Below are positions 2,945 to 55,340 of a DNA stretch of 55,340 bases, one piece after another. The notes beneath the pieces were generated by a model. The model had not been told where the DNA came from, made no database searches, and saw only the letters and a list, made by a program, of their open reading frames with translations. Source of the stretch: a virus; IMG/VR virus record IMGVR_UViG_3300046371_000029, positions 1-55,340 of that record; one strand, given 5' to 3'. A program made the translations under genes and the position numbers. Positions within the stretch are counted from its first letter, which is position 1. Every line of letters begins with the position of its first letter.

Positions 2945-3346
2945 ATGAGTAGAAGCATAGGTAAATGGAAACTACCACAGCCAACAGACATTAAAGAAGA
3001 AAACGAATGGGTGCAGATACCTCGCATTGCAAGGACTGTACCTTTCGGCTATAAGCAGAACGAACAAGACCCCGACATTCTTGACCCAATACCAACAGAA
3101 CTTGACCTGCTAGAAAAAGCTAGGTCGCACGTAAATCAGTATAGTTATCGTGAAGTAGCTAACTGGCTTAGTACAAATACAGGCAGGTCTATCTCACATG
3201 TAGGATTAAGAAAGCGGTTACTAAATGAGCGACAGCGTAAGAACCAAGCTAAAAGCCTCCTCAAGTGGGCAGAATATGCGGAAACGGCAATCGCCAAGGC
3301 GAAAGCCATCGAAGAAGAAAGAACAGGCGCAAAAGCCAACAGTTGA
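2945..3346 (+). CDS. Helix-turn-helix protein of the packaging cluster
   Basis: A 133-residue protein. The N-terminal half is Pro-rich and acidic (WVQIPRIARTVPFGYKQ, DPDILDPIPTELDLL). A likely HTH lies at about 66-95 (YSYREVANWLSTNTGRSISH, then VGLRKRL), and a charged C-terminal helix ends in EEERTGAKANS. The HTH looks like those of recombinase-type DNA-binding proteins. Lying between TerS and TerL it could help define the packaging site. Its last 71 bases overlap the preferred TerL start in another frame. Confidence 0.8.
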   Translation: MSRSIGKWKLPQPTDIKEENEWVQIPRIARTVPFGYKQNEQDPDILDPIPTELDLLEKARSHVNQYSYREVANWLSTNTGRSISHVGLRKRLLNERQRKNQAKSLLKWAEYAETAIAKAKAIEEERTGAKANS

Positions 3347-4784
3347 AATAAAGTCTGTAGAGTACGAGACACAGGCAATTGAAGAGACAGCTAACGTACT
3401 GTTCAAGCCAAACCCCGGACCACAGACGGACTTTCTAGCTGCAGCAGAACGAGAAGTACTATACGGTGGAAGTGCTGGTGGAGGTAAATCCTACGCCATG
3501 CTGTCAGACCCACTACGTTACATGGGGCATCCCGCATTTAGTGGATTGCTCTTGCGACACACCACAGAAGAACTAAGAGAACTGGTATTCAAGTCGCAGG
3601 AGTTGTACCCAAAAATCTGGCCCGGTATTAAGTGGTCAGAGCGAAAGATGCAGTGGACTGCACCATCTGGCGCAAGGTTGTGGATGTCATACCTCGACAG
3701 AGATGATGATGTCTTGCGTTATCAGGGTCTAGCATTTAGCTGGATAGGGTTTGACGAATTGACCCAGTGGGCCACACCATATGCATGGAATTACATGCGG
3801 TCACGTCTACGGTCCACTGCACCCGACTTGCCTATCTTTATGAGAGCCACAACTAACCCCGGAGGAAGAGGTCATCACTGGGTAAAGAAAATGTTCATTG
3901 ACCCATCACCATACAATAGAGCATTCGATGCAACAGACAGTGAAACCGGAGAAGTACTACGATACCCAGCAGGACATGCAAAGGCTGGAAAGTCACTATT
4001 TAAAAGGCGGTTTATCCCAGCAAGACTATCAGACAATCCTTATCTGGCAGAGTCGGGTGACTATGAAGCAATGCTACTCTCCATGCCAGAGCAGCAAAGA
4101 CGACAGCTTCTTGAAGGCGATTGGGATATCAAAGAAGGCGCGGCCTTTACTGAGTTTGACCGCAACATTCATGTTGTTGAGCCTTTCGATGTACCTCATA
4201 ATTGGGTTAAGTTTAGGGCTTGCGATTATGGTTACGGCAGTAAGTCTGGCGTTGTTTGGTTTGCTGTCGCACCTAATGAGCAGCTTGTGGTATATAGAGA
4301 ACTATATGTCTCTAAAGTCCTTGCCGCAGATTTGGCAGATATGATACTTGAATTAGAGGCGGGTGATGGAACTATTAAATATGGTGTGCTGGATAGCAGT
4401 CTTTGGCATAAGCGTGGGGATACTGGACCATCTCTTGCGGAAACTATGATAGCACGAGGATGCCGTTGGCGTCCATCAGATAGAAGCCGTGGCAGTCGTG
4501 TAGCAGGTAAGAACGAAATACACAGACGCTTACAGGTAGATGAGTTTACAGAGGAGCCTAGACTTGTATTCTTTAATAGCTGCACAAATGTCATATCACA
4601 GTTACCAGCCATCCCGCTTGATAAAAAGAATCCAGAAGACATTGATACAAATAGTGAAGACCACTTGTATGATGCGTTAAGGTATGGTATAATGTCCAGA
4701 CCAAGGTTTAGTATATTTGACTACGACCCAATGGGAAGACCTAGCACTGGTATGCGTGTAGCAGACAGTACATTCGGATATTAA
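3276..4784 (+). CDS. Terminase large subunit (TerL)
   Basis: A 502-residue packaging motor that pumps DNA into the prohead with ATP and cuts it. Counting from ATG 3276: Walker A GGSAGGGKS at 64-72, Walker B FSWIGFDE at 154-161, a coupling/adenine-binding region with ATTNPGGRGHHW at about 192-203, and a C-terminal RNase H-like nuclease with D317 (RACDYGYG), D373 (YGVLDSS) and D466 (DHLYDALRYG). Start choice is uncertain: ATG 3225 would add 17 residues and overlap the HTH gene by 122 bases, and neither start has a strong ribosome-binding site. The portal follows ten bases downstream. Confidence 0.95.
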   Translation: MRKRQSPRRKPSKKKEQAQKPTVEIKSVEYETQAIEETANVLFKPNPGPQTDFLAAAEREVLYGGSAGGGKSYAMLSDPLRYMGHPAFSGLLLRHTTEELRELVFKSQELYPKIWPGIKWSERKMQWTAPSGARLWMSYLDRDDDVLRYQGLAFSWIGFDELTQWATPYAWNYMRSRLRSTAPDLPIFMRATTNPGGRGHHWVKKMFIDPSPYNRAFDATDSETGEVLRYPAGHAKAGKSLFKRRFIPARLSDNPYLAESGDYEAMLLSMPEQQRRQLLEGDWDIKEGAAFTEFDRNIHVVEPFDVPHNWVKFRACDYGYGSKSGVVWFAVAPNEQLVVYRELYVSKVLAADLADMILELEAGDGTIKYGVLDSSLWHKRGDTGPSLAETMIARGCRWRPSDRSRGSRVAGKNEIHRRLQVDEFTEEPRLVFFNSCTNVISQLPAIPLDKKNPEDIDTNSEDHLYDALRYGIMSRPRFSIFDYDPMGRPSTGMRVADSTFGY

Positions 4785-13598: not shown

Positions 13599-15113
13599 AT
13601 GGCAGATGAATCTGGCCTCAGTCCTTATGTGTTTGCTTGTGAAGGTGGGTTAGTTCTTGACCAGCCAACCTTTAAGATGCAACCCGGCATGGCACTTGAA
13701 CTAGAAAACTTTGAACCTGATGTACGTGGTGGCTACCGCCGTATCAATGGCTACATCAAATGGAACAGCAATATTGTTCCTCAAACATCTAGTTCATCTG
13801 AAGCAGTGCTTATGTCTGCTTTCTTTCCCGGCAACAATAAAGTAATTGCTGCACGTGGAGAAAAAGTATTTGAGGCTGGTACATCAGGTAGCTGGACAGA
13901 GATTGACACAGGACGTACTAATGCAAACAGGTATACGTTCTTTAGATACAATCTAGCTGGCACTGACCATATTATCTGGGCTGATGGTGCAAACCATGCA
14001 ACAAAGTATGATGGCACAACTGTAACAGATATTAATGCAACAGGCGCACCATCTAATCCAAAGTTTGTTGTAGGTTATAAAAATGCTATGTTCTTTGCAG
14101 GGCATAGTGCTAATAAAGAAGAAATTGTATTTACAGCACCTTTTACTGACAATGACTTTAACACAGCCAATGGCGCAGGTGCCATACGGGTAGACAGCAC
14201 AATCACTGGATTGTTTCCGTTTCGTGATGAACTGTACATCTTCTGTGAAGAACGCATCTTTAGACTTGTAGGCAACACTGTCGCAGACTTTCAGATGCAA
14301 CCTGTTACCAGAGACATTGGTTGTCTAAATAACTTTACCATCCAAGAACTAGCTGGTGATATTATTTTTCTTGGACGAGATGGCCTTAGAACAGTAGCCG
14401 CGACTGAACGTATTAATGACGTTGAACTTGGCACAATTACGGCACCCATTAAGGAACTGTTTGATGGTGTCACAGACGTAGATGAGTTTGTAAGCGTAGT
14501 TGTACCCGGCAAGACACAGTATCGTCTGTTCAGGGTCAATAGGTCAGAAGACACACAGGCTACAACAAAAGGTGTTATTGCCGTACGTAAACAACAAGGA
14601 TATGAGTTTGCTACAACTATAGGCATACAGCCAGCTTGTACAGATTATAATACAGTACAGGGTGACATCTTTGTACTCCACGGTGGCTACGATGGTTATA
14701 TCTATCGCCAAGAACAAGGTAACACATTTGATGGCACTACAATTATAGGCCGTTATCGTTCACCTGATATGACTATGGGAGATGCTGGCATACGTAAAAA
14801 CTTTCAGCGAGTAATTATTAACTACGCACCTACAGGCGCACTTAACTCTGACTTGTTTCTACGATATGACTATGAATCTCCAGATGCAGCAAGACCTGAT
14901 GCATACCCGTTTGACAGTTCAACAGTAGTGGCATTATATGGAACGTCAGTATACGGAACAGCAACATACGGTGGTCAGTCAAACCCATTGGTAAGACAGC
15001 CAGTAGAAGGTAGCGGATTTGCTGTAGCAATGCGGGTGGTGGATAATGATATATCACTACCGTACACACTAAAAGGTTTTCAGCTAGAATTTGATGCAGG
15101 AGCAAGAAGGTAA
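13599..15113 (+). CDS. Tail nozzle / stabilisation protein (beta-propeller type)
   Basis: A 504-residue protein rich in repeated beta blades (for example FRYNLAGTDHIIWADGANHA, ELYIFCEERIFRLVGN, GDIIFLGRDGLRTV, GDIFVLHGGYDGYIYRQEQG). It fits the T7 gp12/P22 gp10 class that forms the distal tube of the short tail. The N-terminal QPTFKMQPGMALELENFEPD is typical of that class. It follows the adaptor by nine bases and its stop overlaps the ATG of the first fibre gene (TAATGG). Confidence 0.8.
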   Translation: MADESGLSPYVFACEGGLVLDQPTFKMQPGMALELENFEPDVRGGYRRINGYIKWNSNIVPQTSSSSEAVLMSAFFPGNNKVIAARGEKVFEAGTSGSWTEIDTGRTNANRYTFFRYNLAGTDHIIWADGANHATKYDGTTVTDINATGAPSNPKFVVGYKNAMFFAGHSANKEEIVFTAPFTDNDFNTANGAGAIRVDSTITGLFPFRDELYIFCEERIFRLVGNTVADFQMQPVTRDIGCLNNFTIQELAGDIIFLGRDGLRTVAATERINDVELGTITAPIKELFDGVTDVDEFVSVVVPGKTQYRLFRVNRSEDTQATTKGVIAVRKQQGYEFATTIGIQPACTDYNTVQGDIFVLHGGYDGYIYRQEQGNTFDGTTIIGRYRSPDMTMGDAGIRKNFQRVIINYAPTGALNSDLFLRYDYESPDAARPDAYPFDSSTVVALYGTSVYGTATYGGQSNPLVRQPVEGSGFAVAMRVVDNDISLPYTLKGFQLEFDAGARR

Positions 15114-16906
15114 TGGCAGGTTACGTAAGACAATCCACATATACTGACGGTGACGTTATTACCGCAGCACAAAGTAACAACGAGTTTAATCAGTTACTTG
15201 CTGCTTTTGTAAATACCACTGGTCACAAACATGACGGCACTGCCGCTGAAGGTCCAGTAATCGGATTGATTGGTGACCCCGGTGTTGCCACACCACTTAA
15301 CAAAGTCGTAGTTAGTGATACAAACAATCGCATTGGTGTGTTCGTAGATGTAGGTGGCAGTTCAACAGAACAGATACGCTTTCAAGACGGTGCCATTGTT
15401 CCTGTAACAGACAACGACATTGACTTGGGTGCATCTGGCACAGAGTTCAAAGACCTGTTTATTGATGGCACAGCCAACATTGACGCACTTATAGCTGACA
15501 CTGCCGACATCAACGGTGGTACAATTGATGGTGTCACTATCGGTGGTGCATCAGCGGGTGCAATTACGGCTACCAGCTTGGTGGCTACTACTGCCGATAT
15601 CAACGGTGGTACAGTAGACGGTGCAGTAATTGGTGGGGCATCTGCTGCTGCCATTACAGGCACAACAATCGTAGCTAACACCAGTATTAATATTGCAGGT
15701 GATGGGGCGACTGTCACAGGCATTAAAGATGAAGACGACATGTCTTCCAATAGTGCGACTAAACTCGCCACGCAACAATCCATTAAGGCTTATGTAGATG
15801 CCCAAGTCACAGCGCAAGACCTTGACTTCCAAGCAGATAGCGGTGGTGTTCTCTCTATCGACCTTGACAGCGAGACTTTCACGCTTACAGGTGGTACAGG
15901 GATTGATACTTCTGGTTCAGGTAATACTGTTACTTTTGCTATTGACTCAACTGTAGCCACACTTACTGGAACACAGACACTTACCAACAAGACGCTTACA
16001 ACGCCCGTCATCTCCTCTATCAGTAACTCAGGTACCATTACCCTACCTACAGGCACAGACACGCTTGTAGGCCGTGCTACGACTGATACACTTACCAATA
16101 AAACCCTTACAAGCCCAACTATTACTACTGGCGTACTTAACGGTGCAGTCAGCGGTACGTCTATCAAAGATGAAGATGATATGTCGTCAGACAGCGCAAG
16201 CCATCTGGCTACGCAGCAGTCTATTAAAGCATATGTAGATAGCCAAGTAACTGCACAGGACTTTGACTTTTCTGGTGACAGTGGTGGCGCACAGAGTGTA
16301 GACCTTGATAGTCAGTCAATGACATTCACAGGTGGCACAGGTATTGATACAACAGGGTCATCACAGACAATGACCTTTGCTATTGATAGCACTGTAGCGA
16401 CACTGACAGGCTCACAAACTCTTACAAATAAAACCTTGACAAGTCCTGTGCTGAACAGTACAATAAGTGGAACTTCCATTAAAGATGAAGACGATATGTC
16501 TTCTAACAGTGCCGACCATCTTGCTACACAACAGTCAATCAAAGCCTATGTAGATACACAAGTAGCCACTGTACCTGTCGGTGACATTACATCTGTAGTT
16601 GCTGGTTCTGGTATGACAGGTGGTGGTACATCTGGTGATGTAACACTGAATGTGATTGGTGGTACAGGTATTACTGCTAATGCTGATGAGATTACAATTG
16701 ACAGCACAGTAACAACACTTACAGGCACACAGACACTTACAAATAAAACCCTGACTAGCCCCACTATTAATGGTGGCTCACTGTCAAGCACAGTCACGGG
16801 TACTACGCAATCTGCTGGCACAAGCAATACAACAATTGCTACAACAGCCTTTGCTGTCACAGAAGCTAACAATGCCGCTGTAGCAATGGCGATTGCACTT
16901 GGATAA
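15113..16906 (+). CDS. Tail fibre with internal repeats
   Basis: A 597-residue fibre. The N-terminus (MAGYVRQSTYTDGDVITAAQ, TGHKHDGTAAEG) is a common podovirus tail-attachment module. The shaft is built of repeats: GTSIKDEDDMSS-type blocks followed by LATQQSIKAYVD occur three times (DNA near 15720, 16165 and 16477), and TLTNKTLTSP-type strands at least four times (near 15978, 16090, 16425, 16734). The C-terminus is a short Ala/Thr-rich helix (TTAFAVTEANNAAVAMAIALG-like) with no intramolecular chaperone seen. It is likely the fibre or adaptor that anchors the others. Confidence 0.85.
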   Translation: MAGYVRQSTYTDGDVITAAQSNNEFNQLLAAFVNTTGHKHDGTAAEGPVIGLIGDPGVATPLNKVVVSDTNNRIGVFVDVGGSSTEQIRFQDGAIVPVTDNDIDLGASGTEFKDLFIDGTANIDALIADTADINGGTIDGVTIGGASAGAITATSLVATTADINGGTVDGAVIGGASAAAITGTTIVANTSINIAGDGATVTGIKDEDDMSSNSATKLATQQSIKAYVDAQVTAQDLDFQADSGGVLSIDLDSETFTLTGGTGIDTSGSGNTVTFAIDSTVATLTGTQTLTNKTLTTPVISSISNSGTITLPTGTDTLVGRATTDTLTNKTLTSPTITTGVLNGAVSGTSIKDEDDMSSDSASHLATQQSIKAYVDSQVTAQDFDFSGDSGGAQSVDLDSQSMTFTGGTGIDTTGSSQTMTFAIDSTVATLTGSQTLTNKTLTSPVLNSTISGTSIKDEDDMSSNSADHLATQQSIKAYVDTQVATVPVGDITSVVAGSGMTGGGTSGDVTLNVIGGTGITANADEITIDSTVTTLTGTQTLTNKTLTSPTINGGSLSSTVTGTTQSAGTSNTTIATTAFAVTEANNAAVAMAIALG

Positions 16907-48833: not shown

Positions 48834-49064
48834 GCTCAGGACTTTATAAGGCAGTTTATCCACGTGCCAAGGTGGTAGTCTCCATTGTTAAGCGCAGCAC
48901 TGTTGCCACTTGTCACATTTAAGGCTATGACCAGACCTATGAGTAGTTTAACGTCATTACTCAGGACGCACCAGTTTTCTTGTGAAGGCGCACTGATCGT
49001 TACCTACCTGCGTTCTGTTTATAGTCGTCTACAGGCTTGACCGTGTTTATACTCACTCGACTAT

Positions 49065-49138
49065 TGGCAGACGTGCAAGGAATTGAACCCTGTCCTAGTG
49101 GGTTGGAACCACTTGTGCTACCGTAACACTTCACGTCT
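49065..49138 (-). tRNA. tRNA-Trp (anticodon CCA)
   Basis: The minus strand folds as a cloverleaf: acceptor AGACGTG/CACGTCT (seven perfect pairs), D stem GTG/CAC with a TTACGGTAG loop, anticodon stem AGTGG/CCACT with loop TTCCAAC (anticodon CCA at 49106-49104), T stem CAGGG/CCTTG (one G-U) with loop TTCAATT. The discriminator is G, as in bacterial tRNA-Trp, and the 3' CCA is encoded (49067-49065). Position 8 is A rather than the usual U, so modification or function could be unusual. The bases at 48834-49064 hold no gene I can support. Confidence 0.88.
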
Positions 49139-49161
49139 ATAAATTCAATAATAAATAAAGT

Positions 49162-49197
49162 GGGGTGCTTTTTCTTCAACCCATACCGTCACACCCC
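49162..49197. other. GGGGTG/CACCCC inverted repeat downstream of 49275 gene
   Basis: GGGGTG at 49162-49167 and CACCCC at 49192-49197 face each other 24 bases apart. On the minus strand the right arm continues as GTGACGGTATG, which also occurs beside the inverted repeat at 50242-50292. It lies between the early gene and the tRNA and could be an RNA processing or regulatory structure. Confidence 0.45.
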
Positions 49198-49274
49198 TTG
49201 AACAGTATGAGCCTACACCTATGTCATGGCATGTCTTACAACGCCTATCGTTTCGCATAGGTACTCCACGAAAC

Positions 49275-49874
49275 TTATTTGATATTATGGATACGTCTCC
49301 ACGTTACCCATGTAATCGCTTGCAATTCAAATGCTTTCAGCGCACGTCCATTGACACGGGTACGCTTGGCAGCGGCTACGTAGTCTGCCTGTAGTGTCCT
49401 GTATTCCTTGACACCTATATTGGTTTTGTCATCTGTCAAGCCTACACGCTCACCATAGGCGATGTTTCGCGCATGTCCATCAATGGTACAGGTATCATCA
49501 CCCATGATGTTACGATAGAATGACACTATCTTTTGACCATTGAGGATAGCAATCACACCATCATGGTCTGGCATTGCCTCAAGTATGGACCATGCTTTTT
49601 GTTTCATCTTGTGATATGTGGACACCTTGACACTATCTATGCCATCACCATTGACACATGCCGCGCATAGATCACGAGCATTGATAATGTTCCTATCCCA
49701 TTTATTGTTGGGCGATAGTGCCGCACAAACACCTGTCACAATGTGAACAGGCAGATCAAGATCAATGGCAATGCGGGTGCAGTCACGCAATGCGTCTGCA
49801 TACCAGACAATGCCATCACGCTTTTCTTCTGGCGTTGCCATCTTGTAAATGGCAAGGATATTTTCTACAGACAT
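49275..49874 (-). CDS. Conserved early protein, DUF7178-like (tentative)
   Basis: A 199-residue protein with family-like blocks: VCAALSPNNKWDRNIINARD, VSTYHKMKQKAWSILEAM, KIVSFYRNIMGDDTCTIDGH followed by ARNIAYGERVG, and a C-terminal AFELQAITWVTWRR. The order of SPNNxWxxNI, KxxNFYxNI and TIDxHA recalls phage proteins with a helix-hairpin-helix glycosylase-like look; activity unproven. ATG 49874 has AGAGGTG upstream. Second gene of the early operon. Confidence 0.75.
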   Translation of the reverse strand: MSVENILAIYKMATPEEKRDGIVWYADALRDCTRIAIDLDLPVHIVTGVCAALSPNNKWDRNIINARDLCAACVNGDGIDSVKVSTYHKMKQKAWSILEAMPDHDGVIAILNGQKIVSFYRNIMGDDTCTIDGHARNIAYGERVGLTDDKTNIGVKEYRTLQADYVAAAKRTRVNGRALKAFELQAITWVTWRRIHNIK

Positions 49875-49910
49875 AGTGTCACCTCTATGTTGGTTGGTTG
49901 GTGTAGTTAT

Positions 49911-49942
49911 GGGGTGCAATGCACTATAAAGCACATTGCATC
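49911..49942. other. Stem-loop between the first two early genes
   Basis: GGTGCAATG at 49913-49921 pairs with CATTGCATC at 49934-49942 region (one G-U) around an A/T-rich loop. It includes a GGGGTG motif (49911-49916). In the 74 bases between the early genes it may act as attenuator or processing site. Confidence 0.5.
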
Positions 49943-49948
49943 CAAGTG

Positions 49949-50164
49949 TTACGCAGTGATAGCCTTGGGGCTAACAAAGCGACCAGTAACAGGATCACGA
50001 CCCAAAAGCAAGTAGCTTTGGTGACGTGCCATTGATCCTACCTGTTTGCCGTAACGTGTCTTGCCGTTCTTAGAGTTTTTCTCAGAGCGTTGGAAGAACA
50101 CATTGCCAGCGTAGGCAGGGTTGATGTTTTTCACGTTAGTGGTGAGGATTTTCTTGACATTCAT
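49949..50164 (-). CDS. First early gene, small basic protein
   Basis: A 71-residue basic protein (NVKKILTTNVKNINPAYAGN, VFFQRSEKNSKNGKTRYGKQ, LLLGRDPVTGRFVSPKAI). It is the first gene of the leftward operon, with a strong AAAGGAG box before ATG 50164. As the first product made it could be a host-takeover or regulatory protein (inference). No family recognised. Confidence 0.78.
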   Translation of the reverse strand: MNVKKILTTNVKNINPAYAGNVFFQRSEKNSKNGKTRYGKQVGSMARHQSYLLLGRDPVTGRFVSPKAITA

Positions 50165-50203
50165 TTTGCATCTCCTTTGATGTTGGTTGTTGAATGTGGG
50201 TAT

Positions 50204-50232
50204 ACATTACACCCCATAATCACACCAGTCAA
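50204..50232 (-). promoter_or_regulatory. Possible early promoter with embedded GGGGTG motif
   Basis: On the minus strand TTGACT (50232-50227), a 17-base spacer and TAATGT (50209-50204). The -10 is weak. The GGGGTG motif (50215-50210) sits inside the spacer right next to the -10, a place where a bound protein would control initiation. The next gene begins 40 bases downstream. Confidence 0.5.
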
Positions 50233-50241
50233 CAATAAAAT

Positions 50242-50292
50242 ATGGGGTGACAATAAATATCTGGCACGTTGCCTAGCATACCGTCACCCCAT
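50242..50292. repeat. Inverted repeat ATGGGGTGAC / GTCACCCCAT
   Basis: A perfect ten-base arm at 50242-50251 and its complement at 50283-50292, 31 bases apart. The loop contains CGTTGCCTAGCATAC. The arms carry the same GGGGTG core found at 50210-50215, 49911-49916, 49162-49167 and 49192-49197. Upstream of the early promoter, it looks like an operator pair or an RNA stem. Confidence 0.6.
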
Positions 50293-50430
50293 TGTTTTAT
50301 GTTTTACTCTCAATTTTCACCCGACTTGCTATCGTCAGTTTTTCACACCTGTTGCGTCAACGGCATATCCAAGGATAGCTAGGGCATCCGCGCTTTGTGT
50401 AGTTACTTATTGAGCCTGTAAAGTAGATTT

Positions 50431-50478
50431 TTGTTTGTGATGCTCACATGTTACCATGACATGGTACACCACAAACAA
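50431..50478. repeat. Nested inverted repeats in the control region
   Basis: Outer arms TTGTTTGTG (50431-50439) and CACAAACAA (50470-50478) enclose a perfect inner palindrome TACCATG-A-CATGGTA (50452-50466). The inner 15-mer looks like a dimeric repressor operator; the whole could also form one long RNA or cruciform. Confidence 0.6.
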
Positions 50479-51391
50479 CCTCGTCAGCACTGTGACGCAT
50501 GGCTAGACAACTTACAAGACTAGCCTGTTTACATTACGCCCCTGATACATTTGGAGTTGGGATTTCCCTTGTCGGCCTTGTCGATCATACACTATCTGCC
50601 TTGGTAGCTAGTGCTGTAATCCGACTGGTTGCGTCAAGTTATGACCACCCTTCGCCCGTGCATAGTCCGCACATGGTATCGGTTCGCTAGGCTACACGGG
50701 ATTGACCGCATCTTTGCCCTGTTTTTGGTCAGTGTCTCGCACTGGCAGGTTTTTATTGGAAAACCTCGTAAACCGTCTTTTCAGTCTCATTACTCTAATT
50801 CACTTCAATTCGGTAGTCAACTCTTTTTTATTCGGTAGGCGTATTCTGTTTTATTCTTTATGCCTAGCTGAATGTTGCACGTGGCGATTATCAGTTATCT
50901 AGCGTTTACTTTTGCGAGCCATGTTGAACCTTGCGGTTGGTCTGGTTGTTCGCTTCAGTCTCTAAATCCTGCCTGAATAAATAGGTAAAGTATACAGCTA
51001 ATTTCATTAATGTTTTCAGTAGGTTACTGATTAACGTATTGTTTTTGTTGGATATTTTATTTCAATTATTTTTGAATTATTTTTGGTTATGTAATGTTTT
51101 CAATGACTTAGCTATGAAATTAATTTGAATATGTAATGAAAACAAAGGGATAGGGGGTATGGTCTGAAAAATCGTTTTTTATATATAATAAGTGTAGATG
51201 GTTTTTTATGTGCTTCGCCGCAGTAAAGTGTTGCCAAAATGCCACAAAATTGTATTTTTGCCACACATTTTGATCGTCAATAGATAGAGTATCAATAGCC
51301 TAAAGCAGATAATCGTTTATTTTCAGCGGTTTAGAGCGATTGACCATCAAAAATGTCCAGATTGCGCCACTACTGGTGAATTTTTGACCAT

Positions 51392-51424
51392 GGGGCAGGG
51401 GCCACGGGCGGGGTATACGTATAC
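51392..51424. other. G-rich tract (possible quadruplex) followed by palindrome
   Basis: Four G runs (51392-51395, 51398-51401, 51406-51408, 51410-51413) separated by one to four bases could form a G-quadruplex. The last G begins the perfect 12-bp palindrome GTATACGTATAC (51413-51424). Both stand out in an A/T-rich surrounding. Confidence 0.6.
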
Positions 51425-51573
51425 GTACTTGTAGAAATACACAGATCAGGAAAATGAACTGTTAACCACAAAGGCAACTGTAGTATATACACCTACAAGC
51501 ACACACTATTGTGCAAATATTTTGCGTGAAAACACCATATATGAAATATATTTCTAATACCTAAATTAACCTG

Positions 51574-51602
51574 TTGACACGATCCCCTGATTCTGGTATA
51601 AT
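51574..51602 (+). promoter_or_regulatory. Full-consensus sigma-70 promoter of the rightward operon
   Basis: TTGACA (51574-51579), 17-base spacer ending TGG, TATAAT (51597-51602): consensus at both hexamers, spacing and extended -10. TGGTATAATTAT and the following A/T pattern are shared with the fibre promoter at 16912. It points into the late operon, about 160 bases before its first gene. Confidence 0.9.
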
Positions 51603-51623
51603 TATGTATAACTAGGAATCATA

Positions 51624-51731
51624 TAAGTGTTACACTTAACTGTCCTTAGTTAAATCTATAAAAACACTTAGCTACAACACTTAAATGATTTAAAGTTTCT
51701 TTGTTAATACACTTAACTGAACACATAAGTG
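51624..51731. repeat. ACACTTA motif array downstream of the main promoter
   Basis: Direct copies at 51632, 51664, 51677 and 51709 and inverted copies at 51624 (TAAGTGT) and 51726 (TAAGTGA, one mismatch). The first two face each other as a palindrome. Copies 51632/51664 and 51677/51709 are both spaced exactly 32 bases, about three helical turns. TACACTTAACTG occurs exactly twice (51631 and 51708). Likely protein-binding sites in the leader of the rightward transcript. Confidence 0.75.
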
Positions 51732-51762
51732 ATATTATCCGTGATAAAGAAAGTTCTTGACA

Positions 51763-51975
51763 ATGGCGAAGAAATCTGTAAAACTATACACAGACAATGT
51801 ACTTGATGCATTCTACAATGCCATCCGTACAAACACATTAGACAAACTCCACATACCTCATAGCGATGTTTTCTACGTGCGTACTGCTGTAGAGGCATAC
51901 TATGGGCGTTCCTTTACTCTGAAACACGTAGAAGATGCTATGAGAGCAGAAGGGTGGACAGAGAGGAACGAATGA
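51763..51975 (+). CDS. First gene of the rightward operon, small conserved type
   Basis: A 70-residue protein (KLYTDNVLDAFYNAIRTNTL, DKLHIPHSDVFYVRTAVEAY, LKHVEDAMRAEGW). I recall the LDKLxIPYSDVFYxRxAIE pattern from marine phages; it is helical and could be a small winged or helix-turn-helix DNA binder. ATG 51763 is preferred over TTG 51757; the ribosome site is weak. Its place behind the strong promoter and the ACACTTA array makes it a candidate regulator (inference). Confidence 0.75.
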   Translation: MAKKSVKLYTDNVLDAFYNAIRTNTLDKLHIPHSDVFYVRTAVEAYYGRSFTLKHVEDAMRAEGWTERNE

Positions 51976-51976
51976 T

Positions 51977-52174
51977 ATGTTTGAAGCATGGATAATGGTC
52001 TGTGTTATGTACCAGACAGGTGCGTGTTTTCCTGCACAAGACACTCGTGGTCCGTATAAGACGCATGACGAGTGCTATGAGCGTACCGTAGAAATGAGTG
52101 CAGATATTATTGAGAACATTCCGCTACACGTACCTGTAAGCTGGAAGTGTACATCACCGGGAACTCCAACATAA
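51977..52174 (+). CDS. Small Cys-containing protein with hydrophobic N-terminus
   Basis: A 65-residue protein (MFEAWIMVCVMYQTGACFPA, DTRGPYKTHDECYERTVEMS). The hydrophobic start is weak as a signal peptide; C9, C17, C33 and C58 could form disulfides outside the cytoplasm. The RGPYKTxxECxxRxxEM pattern is one I associate with marine phages. Its stop TAA overlaps the next ATG. Confidence 0.72.
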   Translation: MFEAWIMVCVMYQTGACFPAQDTRGPYKTHDECYERTVEMSADIIENIPLHVPVSWKCTSPGTPT

Positions 52175-52467
52175 TGGCTATACCAGAGAGAGTACGTAAT
52201 AAAATGAAGGAGGAAGGTCTTAAAGGCGTGAACAAGCCTAAGAGAACTCCTAACCACCCAACTAAGTCTCACTGTGTGATGGCATCAGAAGGTGGTAAGT
52301 ATAAGTTCATACGCTTTGGTCAGCAGGGTGTATCAGGTGCTGGTAAGAATCCTAAGTCAGCGAAGGATAAAGCACGTAAGAAGTCCTACTATGCACGTCA
52401 CAATGCACAGGGCAAGCCAACTACTAAGCTGTCTGCGAAGTATTGGTCACATAAGGTTAAATGGTAA
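52174..52467 (+). CDS. Basic DUF6321-like protein
   Basis: A 97-residue basic protein. The C-terminal half (FGQQGVSGAGKNPKSAKDKA, RKKSYYARHNAQGK, LSAKYWSHKVKW) matches the short DUF6321-type signature seen in phages and large viruses. Start ATG 52174 overlaps the preceding stop. Function unknown; DNA binding or a virion role is possible. Confidence 0.8.
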   Translation: MAIPERVRNKMKEEGLKGVNKPKRTPNHPTKSHCVMASEGGKYKFIRFGQQGVSGAGKNPKSAKDKARKKSYYARHNAQGKPTTKLSAKYWSHKVKW

Positions 52468-52477
52468 AGGATTAGTT

Positions 52478-52945
52478 ATGGCTGGAGTAGATAGTGTAGT
52501 AAGTCTTGCTTACAAATTAACAGGACCGATTAGAAGGAAAGCGATGAATGCTTTGGGTATTAACCCTGCAGGTAAACCGGGTCGTTCTGGAGATGGTATT
52601 GTAGTAGGACGTGATAGGGTAAGGATTGAAAATAAAATCAATCAGCTAAAAGGTGGCGGTAAAGCATTAGGTGCTGCTGCTATTATTCACGAGTTGCTAG
52701 GTATTAACACTGTAGCAGATGGTTCTATTAAAAAGGACGGTGCTAACTATAAGTTTGTACCTGTAACACCTAAACCTAAAACAAAAGCTAAAACAAAGCC
52801 TGACCCACGCAAAGACAAACAGATAGCACTTCCTAAACGCAAACCTAAAAAACCTAAATCAAAAGTAACACCACCAAAGCCCAAGCCCAAGAAGAAACAG
52901 AATGGTGTGAAGTTCGTATTTGAAACAAAGAAGAAGGGTAAGTAA
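52478..52945 (+). CDS. Lys/Pro-rich basic protein, unknown
   Basis: A 155-residue protein. A small N-terminal domain (LAYKLTGPIRRKAMNALGIN, GGGKALGAAAIIHELLGINT) is followed from about residue 95 by a Lys/Pro tail (KPKTKAKTKPDPRKDKQIAL, KRKPKKPKSKVTPPKPKPKK) like histone H1 tails. ATG 52478 has AAGGAT upstream. Could condense DNA in the virion (inference). Confidence 0.75.
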   Translation: MAGVDSVVSLAYKLTGPIRRKAMNALGINPAGKPGRSGDGIVVGRDRVRIENKINQLKGGGKALGAAAIIHELLGINTVADGSIKKDGANYKFVPVTPKPKTKAKTKPDPRKDKQIALPKRKPKKPKSKVTPPKPKPKKKQNGVKFVFETKKKGK

Positions 52946-52946
52946 G

Positions 52947-53279
52947 ATGGCTAAGAAAACTTTTACGGAAGTACAAAAAGAAGTTATGGATATTGCAAGA
53001 CGCAACGAACTTGATGAGTCTCAAGCAGAATCTTTGCTGAGACGTAGACTGCGCCAAGAAGGTATCCCTTTACCAGATTACATGGCTAAAAAGCAAGAAT
53101 TTAAAAAGGGTGGTACGCCTAAGAAGAAAAAAGTTCAGATGATGCGTGGCGGTATGGCTAATGGCAAGGTACACATGTATGCTGCAGGTGGTTCTGTCAC
53201 AGAGAACCCCGGATTGAAAGCACTTAAAGCTAGTGGACCAAAGGGCATGGAAGCCTACAACAAAATTACAGGTAAGTAA
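52947..53279 (+). CDS. Small protein with GG motifs, unknown
   Basis: A 110-residue protein. The first 45 residues are helical (TEVQKEVMDIARRNELDESQ), followed by a basic segment with FKKGGTPKKKKVQMMRGGMA and HMYAAGGSV, and a short C-terminal helix. The QMMRGG and KKGG elements recur in the proteins at 54049, 7071 and 23880. ATG 52947 comes two bases after the previous stop. Confidence 0.75.
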   Translation: MAKKTFTEVQKEVMDIARRNELDESQAESLLRRRLRQEGIPLPDYMAKKQEFKKGGTPKKKKVQMMRGGMANGKVHMYAAGGSVTENPGLKALKASGPKGMEAYNKITGK

Positions 53280-54774: not shown

Positions 54775-55056
54775 ATGCCACGTGTCACTAAAAAACCAGC
54801 CGCTAAAAAGAAAGCCACACCGACTTCAGCGAAAGCGAAACAGACTAGAACGGTTAAACTTGCGGCGGGTGGTGCGCCAAAGAGCAAAAGCAGAGTTAAT
54901 GAAGCTGGCAACTATACTAAGCCCGGAATGAGGAAGCAACAGTTTAATCGCATTAAGGCTGGTGGCAAAGGTGGCGCACCCGGTCAGTGGTCAGCACGTA
55001 AAGCCCAGATGCTTGCCAAGGCTTACAAGTCAGCAGGTGGAGGTTACAAGTCGTGA
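54775..55056 (+). CDS. Small basic protein with GQWSARKAQ signature (DUF5872-like)
   Basis: A 93-residue basic protein. The Lys/Ala N-terminus (RVTKKPAAKKKATPTSAKAK) is followed by KLAAGGAPKSKSRVNEAGN and the conserved C-terminal part FNRIKAGGKGGAPGQWSARK, ending GGGYKS. The signature is that of short DUF5872-type proteins. AGGAG is seven bases before ATG 54775. A diverged version of its 3' end is at 1-68. Confidence 0.78.
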   Translation: MPRVTKKPAAKKKATPTSAKAKQTRTVKLAAGGAPKSKSRVNEAGNYTKPGMRKQQFNRIKAGGKGGAPGQWSARKAQMLAKAYKSAGGGYKS

Positions 55057-55057
55057 A

Positions 55058-55249
55058 GTGGAACATGTATTTTTACTTCTTGTATTTGTAGGCATTGGAG
55101 AAGAAAAGAAACTAGAGAGCAAAGACTTATTCTTTAGGGATTTGCAAGAGTGTGTCTGGTACGCACAGACATTACATAAACAAGGGAATTTAGTTACAGC
55201 ATACTGCCTTCCTAAATACGTTAACCCCGGCAACGTAAGGATATATTAA
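55058..55249 (+). CDS. Small membrane protein (63 aa), second copy
   Basis: The same 63-residue protein as at 70-261 with D to E and R to K changes and a GTG start. It begins one base after the preceding stop and its own stop overlaps the ATG of the next gene. Real duplicate or strain variant at the junction cannot be decided from sequence alone; the latter is more likely. Confidence 0.75.
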   Translation: MEHVFLLLVFVGIGEEKKLESKDLFFRDLQECVWYAQTLHKQGNLVTAYCLPKYVNPGNVRIY

Positions 55250-55340
55250 TGGACCCGATTAGTGCAATGGCAACCGCTTCTGCGGCGTTTGGTGCTATCA
55301 AGAAAGGCTTTCAAATAGGCCGTGACATTGAGTCTATGGC
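55249..55340 (+). CDS. 5' end of single-pass membrane protein (second copy, truncated by window end)
   Basis: The first 30 codons of the gene at 261-956, identical in sequence to 261-352. The frame stays open to the window edge. It shows that the rightward operon runs on across the junction. Confidence 0.85.
   Translation, partial: MDPISAMATASAAFGAIKKGFQIGRDIESM

Follow-up and report, generated by a model that had tools for sequence, protein, structure and literature searches.

Paired dyads with lineage-specific half-sites form a putative multi-site operator between tandem promoters in an HMO-2011-type marine podovirus

Operators built from several binding sites are already a known kind of control element, and Arc and MetJ are small dimeric repressors with multi-dimer operators. 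The L5-type stoperators of Cluster A mycobacteriophages are Rep sites in transcribed DNA, described in the available part of PMC6550527 as 13 bp long, asymmetric, distributed genome-wide, and mostly in one orientation. The lambdoid promoter PR', which serves the late operon, is a strong sigma-70 promoter combined with an initially transcribed -10-like element (PMC4604602 and PMC7171158, in the portions accessible). Phages of the HMO-2011 type are dominant and widespread in the sea (PMC9038755), and an integrase is found in some of them, with integration shown for CRP-3 (PMC6918029), according to the accessible sections of these papers. In those sections, neither promoters nor repressors are mentioned in PMC9038755 or PMC8528129, and repressors are not mentioned in PMC6918029. 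Within the accessible literature, from which subscription journals are mostly missing so that the absence is weak, no description was found for the HMO-2011 group of a paired array with shifting letters between two promoters heading the structural operon. Here we describe such an array.

The array was identified in IMGVR_UViG_3300046371_000029, a virus record of 55,340 bases that was analysed at its full length and is called the window below. By its sequence, the window is an HMO-2011-type marine podovirus, with a PolA that carries a DnaJ-type insert and with homologous terminase, portal, and coat genes. The gene at 39188-41230 matches DNA_pol_A and an exonuclease domain, with a DnaJ_CXXCXGXG match below the cut-off, and identity to HMO-2011 is 95% for TerL and 92% for the portal protein. 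Rightward genes run from 51763 across the record end to 32300 and encode packaging, portal, coat, and tail functions, whereas leftward genes run from 50164 down to about 32310 and encode replication and metabolism. The rightward operon is thus one of packaging and morphogenesis, not an early operon, and its gene content suggests that it is expressed late. A tRNA gene at 49068-49138 (- strand) in the leftward operon is the sole Rfam match across 49000-53000. The record ends (1-330 and 55000-55340) are imperfect copies of each other, probably because a circular genome was closed over population variants.

The following features were annotated at the head of the rightward operon.

51574..51602, + strand: P1, promoter of the rightward operon, TTGACA-17-TGgTATAAT, with 12/12 consensus bases plus the TG extension.
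51607..51614, + strand: TATAACTA, a -10-like element of the initially transcribed region, at about -2 to +6.
51620..51629, - strand: putative operator site 1, CATATAAGTG on the + strand, weight-matrix score 12.8 bits.
51633..51642, + strand: putative operator site 2, CACTTAACTG, 15.0 bits, 13 bp from site 1.
51665..51674, + strand: putative operator site 3, the weakest, CACTTAGCTA, 11 bits (under the cut-off of the scan that scored the other five), 32 bp from site 2.
51678..51687, + strand: putative operator site 4, CACTTAAATG, 14.5 bits, 13 bp from site 3.
51710..51719, + strand: putative operator site 5, CACTTAACTG, 14.3 bits, 32 bp from site 4.
51722..51731, - strand: putative operator site 6, CACATAAGTG on the + strand, 14.4 bits, 12 bp from site 5.
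51757..51786, + strand: P2, a promoter-like sequence whose TTGACA abuts the start codon, with a 16-nt spacer and TAAAAC(TA) inside the first gene.
51763..51975, + strand: P0001, first gene of the rightward operon, encoding a 70-aa orphan protein.

P1 is a perfect extended sigma-70 promoter, the leader (51603-51762) lies directly downstream of it, and all six sites fall downstream of the predicted transcription start and ahead of the first gene. A preliminary description had counted six copies of ACACTTA in 51624-51731. Six CACTTA cores are indeed present, but the 7-mer is exact in five only, within 51624-51715 (at 51624 on the - strand and at 51632, 51664, 51677, and 51709 on the + strand); the sixth copy, at 51726-51732 on the - strand, reads TCACTTA and is exact only as the hexamer. 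The palindrome formed by the first two copies (TAAGTGTTACACTTA at 51624-51638) and the 12-mer TACACTTAACTG, which recurs 77 bp apart at 51631 and 51708, were found as described. That the regularity exceeds chance was borne out by 5000 dinucleotide shuffles of 51603-51762, none of which gave five exact copies (5 observed versus a shuffle mean of 0.13 and a maximum of 2; 0/5000 with at least 5). When up to one mismatch was allowed, 8 copies were found against a mean of 1.73, and 1/5000 shuffles reached 8. Across the whole window, ACACTTA is not enriched (16 copies versus 12.4 expected), and the unusual feature is its clustering, not its total. Five further exact copies, some evenly spaced (18 bp), occur at 15959-16739 inside the gene at 15113-16906; they probably represent coding repeats internal to that gene, with no relation to the operator array.

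Read as dyads of the form CACT-TA-A(A/C/G)TG, the copies resolve into six near-palindromic sites (CACT-N2/3-AGTG) whose starts lie 13, 32, 13, 32, and 12 bp apart, forming three pairs. The 32-base periodicity proposed earlier must accordingly be revised: the 32-bp spacings are real (51632-51664 and 51677-51709), but they measure how far neighbouring pairs lie apart, and the true period of the array is 44-45 bp. The weight matrix gave nine hits of at least 11 bits in the window, four of them outside the leader.

Leaders of related genomes were collected from IMG/VR by recruitment with P0001, which gave 504 confirmed loci and from which the 80 best were retained; further scans, keeping the best 80 of 593, of 483, and of 163, yielded lineages B (CRP-2-like) and C (CRP-13-like), so the sample leans toward genomes with the P0001 gene. 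For lineage A, the 85 leaders whose promoter scored 10.5 or more were dereplicated to 47. Removal of L085, L086, and L089, which belong to other lineages, left 44 leaders for dyad-spacing counts and site geometry, and further removal of L021 and L045, in which the promoter was mis-picked, left 42 for chains, folding, the -10-like element, and palindrome counts. For lineage C, 32 dereplicated leaders minus L327, L328, L330, and L332 gave 28. A held-out set comprised 16 leaders, five other candidates having been left out for lacking a promoter or sufficient length.

In the relatives, too, the array lies downstream of a promoter of comparable quality, and a weight-matrix motif search showed that both the array and its spacing are conserved in their leaders. 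The lineage-A leaders diverge overall, yet dyads with a spacer of 2 or 3 bp are enriched about 65-fold: the 44 leaders contain 60 CAYT-N2-ARTG and 51 CAYT-N3-ARTG dyads, compared with shuffle values of 0.9 and 0.75, and dyads of any other spacing stay close to background. When gapped palindromes were counted without bias, CACT-N3-AGTG was recovered 38 times in 23/42 leaders (0.3 in shuffles). Sites of at least 10 bits occur at 22.2/kb in leaders versus 0.32 in upstream and 0.35 in coding DNA, with a matrix trained on the same leaders; for this reason the 16 held-out leaders were scored, and they contained 40 sites against 1.6 in shuffles. Adjacent sites in lineage A are most often 12-14 bp apart, and + and - orientations are mixed. 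Chains of three pairs were found in 17/42 leaders and chains of two pairs in 26/42, whereas random placement gave 0.00 and 0.53. In the held-out leaders, two-pair chains occur in 6/16 and three-pair chains in 0/16, which indicates that the full geometry is common but not universal. In the lineage-A records scanned, the array-like clusters inspected away from P1 are coding DNA, and in G011 and G018 matches resembling CACTTATAGTG close to the primase gene look coding and were set aside. Six loci were located in MAG contigs of 24-63 kb, two pairs of which look like duplicate deposits; none of the six is a clear prophage, and they may be mis-binned phage DNA.

The second promoter-like sequence is also widespread. 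Its -10 element, TAAAACTA or TACAACTA, is embedded in the first-gene codons V-K/Q-L-Y, and the pattern is present in 91/91 distinct lineage-A loci and 55/55 distinct lineage-B loci. In lineage A, the codons GTA AAA CTA are fixed at this position (91/91), whereas CTA accounts for 52/469 of the other Leu codons in the same genes. Lineage C has a P2-like sequence in 33/46 loci, often about 50 bp upstream of the recruited start. Since P2 overlaps the start of the first gene, the lineage-A array sits between two promoter-like sequences, and since transcripts from P2 would begin inside the gene, P0001 would be made only from P1. Upstream of P1, a block at 51439-51470 (ACACAGATYAGG...GTGTTAACCACA) is strongly conserved in lineage A and is perhaps involved in an origin or in leftward control.

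The letters of the half-sites change among the relatives. The lineage-A leaders L011, L013, L081, and L163 carry CATT alone or CATT together with TATT. In lineage C, the unbiased palindrome count returned TACT-N3-AGTA (69 copies in 23/28 leaders; 1.7 in shuffles), with adjacent centres most often 12-13 bp apart, 9-bp neighbours, and variable gaps between pairs. A site lies inside the P2 spacer in 8/28 dereplicated lineage-C leaders. Lineage B appears less clear, as a site falls inside the P1 -35/-10 spacer in 10/19 leaders and the promoter-overlap pattern fits only these. A second TACT-N3-AGTA array was found in lineage C in CRP-13 and G030 (L335:3400-3545 and L379:2640-2790), placed behind a promoter-like sequence in the opposite operon, where small genes and a tRNA-like sequence come after it. 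FZCC0023 is the isolation strain for CRP-1, CRP-2, CRP-9, and CRP-13, whose leaders differ, with CACT sites in CRP-1 and TACT sites in CRP-9 and CRP-13; different leaders in phages of one strain argue against a host factor as the binder. A change of letters with retention of spacing fits operators read by a phage-encoded DNA-binding protein. Some lineage-B leaders, for example L173 upstream of position 578, contain a long inverted repeat (ACGTGCTGC...GCGGCACGT and similar) that encloses the pyrimidine tract TCTCCTCTCC; the repeat lies between P1 and the gene and may be an RNA element.

Regularly spaced dyads around a promoter, as in known multi-site operators, are therefore present at this locus, and the proposal that the array is an operator for the rightward operon is supported by the conserved leaders and spacing. 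Judging from what can be read in the DNA, namely the sites, their geometry and conservation, their position between P1 and P2, and the lineage-specific change of letters, we consider it probable that the array is a multi-site operator at which cooperative pairs of a phage protein control the tandem promoters. We infer that a sequence-specific protein encoded by the phage would bind short dyads with the half-site CACT and a spacer of 2-3 bp. Neighbouring dyads about 12-14 bp apart would be bound cooperatively side by side as pairs, and the pairs would be held about three helical turns from each other. The spacing of about 12 bp would suit small dimers. The bound array would control P1 (upstream) and P2 (downstream) of the packaging and morphogenesis operon, and mainly by repression: the very strong P1 would most likely be kept off until late in infection or during lysogeny. 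Occupancy of the DNA just behind the start site would be the first choice of mechanism; in an alternative form, little transcription would be allowed past +10 to +120, and there may be a switch from P1 to P2. That the half-sites may be separated by either 2 or 3 bp is uncommon for a dimer of rigid build and counts against the operator model.

Set against the known systems, the array shares with Arc and MetJ operators short dyads about one turn apart that suit small dimers lying side by side, but no RHH_1 (ribbon-helix-helix) match was found in 13 group records. As with stoperators (PMC6550527, available part), several short sites lie in transcribed DNA and their letters drift by lineage, there in step with repressor specificity. 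In contrast to stoperators, the dyads here have mixed orientations with no prevailing one relative to transcription, are ordered in pairs, and are packed at one promoter (two in lineage C), with no genome-wide scatter in the lineage-A records scanned; stoperators have a cognate repressor, and for the dyads no such candidate was found with RHH_1, HTH_3, or MarR_2.

Proteins that might bind the array were sought among the products of the phages themselves. In each of the array-bearing genomes that were compared, the P0001 gene comes first in the operon, and it is present in all 12 other genomes of the comparison. The preliminary suggestion that its product is the binder was not upheld, as the protein stays nearly identical while half-sites go from CACT to CATT: between L049 (8/8 CACT) and L081 (4/4 CATT), P0001 differs at three positions. 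AlphaFold2 models of P0001 (pLDDT 62 with 47 rows and 74 with 112 rows) contain three helices; for the two models, Foldseek returned nothing significant and the best VIA-align Z was 2.0, a missing match that does not prove a new fold. No convincing family match was obtained for P0001, and its weak Pfam/PHROG hits are inconsistent and were read as chance. The other product put forward earlier, P0002 (49949-50164), occurs in only 4 other distinct contigs among all those fetched and so cannot be a general binder. The remark that such phages have no annotated repressor held to the extent that none was recognisable with RHH_1, HTH_3, and MarR_2: in 13 records of the array-bearing group, RHH_1 and MarR_2 each matched 0/13 and HTH_3 gave one sub-cut-off match (1/13). 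A protein encoded at 2945-3346 that looks HTH-like by eye was rejected, being 95% identical in the CATT-type L011 with no tracking of the half-sites, and it also occurs in CRP-3, where no array was seen in the stretch inspected. The lack of a recognisable regulator in these family searches counts against the operator model, as does the failure of this protein and of P0001 to track the half-site change. CRP-13 gp06 (L335:1991-2323) has the look of a winged helix, with HTH_34 at E = 0.027, below the cut-off, and was likewise set aside; none of the other sequences searched, G030 among them, has a homologue of it among its ORFs.

The -10-like TATAACTA, present in 33/42 dereplicated leaders, resembles the lambda PR' pause element, and a pausing model therefore stays as a rival, although we regard it as unlikely. 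Under this model P1 would be constitutive, TATAACTA would pause polymerase immediately after initiation, and the protein at the array would load onto, or release, the paused enzyme. The late-type gene content of the operon, a TAWAAC element 3-6 nt past the -10 in 38/42 leaders, at about -2 to +4 and so near the position of the lambda PR' element at +1 to +6 (PMC4604602, accessible portion), and the start of site 1 directly after the -10-like element are consistent with it, and the strong sigma-70 promoter is a further likeness to PR' (PMC4604602 and PMC7171158, accessible portions). Unlike PR', however, the leader (51603-51762) contains no terminator-like site on the + strand, Phage_antitermQ matched 0/13 records (in a search whose control exceeded the cut-off in only 1/14 genomes), and there are six paired sites, more than one loading site needs, where Q has a single site. 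In lineage B, moreover, the sites fall in the P1 spacer instead.

Two other explanations are improbable, to about the same degree. The repeats could act in the leader mRNA as hairpins for translation control or attenuation, since the leaders, with their inverted repeats, fold at low energy (z about -2.5) and some adjacent sites could pair (TAAGTG-TTA-CACTTA). RNA structure is disfavoured by equal folding of both strands (z of -2.46 for sense versus -2.63 for antisense; n=42, p=0.43) and by the commonest dyad, CACT..AATG (38 occurrences), which places a C-A mismatch in RNA, the wobble form CATT..AGTG occurring only 4 times; in lineages B and C, the sites also overlap core promoters. The repeats could instead be replication-origin iterons at the GC-skew minimum, as the sign of the skew flips near 51 kb and a long, partly AT-rich region separates the divergent operons, but the skew tracks gene direction too. 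The iteron reading, also raised in the preliminary description, is not supported because the sites have mixed orientation and the array goes with the packaging and morphogenesis operon, not the replication module. Iterons would be direct repeats tied to a replication initiator, but arrays remain where the replication module differs: CRP-13 and G030 have arrays with no match to the polymerase, helicase, primase, or integrase of the window, and in both the array type occurs twice.

A pac site for the small subunit of terminase, as the position at the head of a terminase-bearing operon might suggest, is very improbable, given that about 6 kb separate the array from the TerS-like gene (2299-2697) downstream of it across the record ends, the site letters vary among phages with conserved TerS homologues, and sites of other lineages overlap -35/-10 spacers. 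Arm-type repeats of an attachment site can be dismissed almost entirely despite a tyrosine recombinase in the window and in relatives: the two CRP-3 attachment-site primers that were found map to 2829-2849 and 3642-3662, beside the primase gene and not where the structural operon begins, although arm sites should adjoin the recombination site; and CRP-13 and G030 carry arrays with no match to the recombinase of the window, although arm sites should depend on an integrase.

The operator model can be extended, more tentatively and with considerable doubt, to a late-gene switch not yet described in an abundant marine phage group, in which a new kind of phage regulator without a recognised fold family, acting between tandem promoters, would shut P1 and favour P2, whose -10 is hidden in codons of the first gene, and would repeatedly evolve new letters (CACT, CATT, TACT, and others) while keeping the paired geometry. 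If this is true, changing the operator letters would insulate co-infecting relatives within one host. The array provides short bait DNA whose lineage specificity is known and with which the regulator of the structural operon should be recoverable, and the half-site letters form a readable code from which cross-regulation or mutual exclusion among relatives should be predictable. For a group in which some members carry an integrase, CRP-3 is known to integrate, and the accessible parts of the papers name no repressor, the array thus offers a testable entry point.
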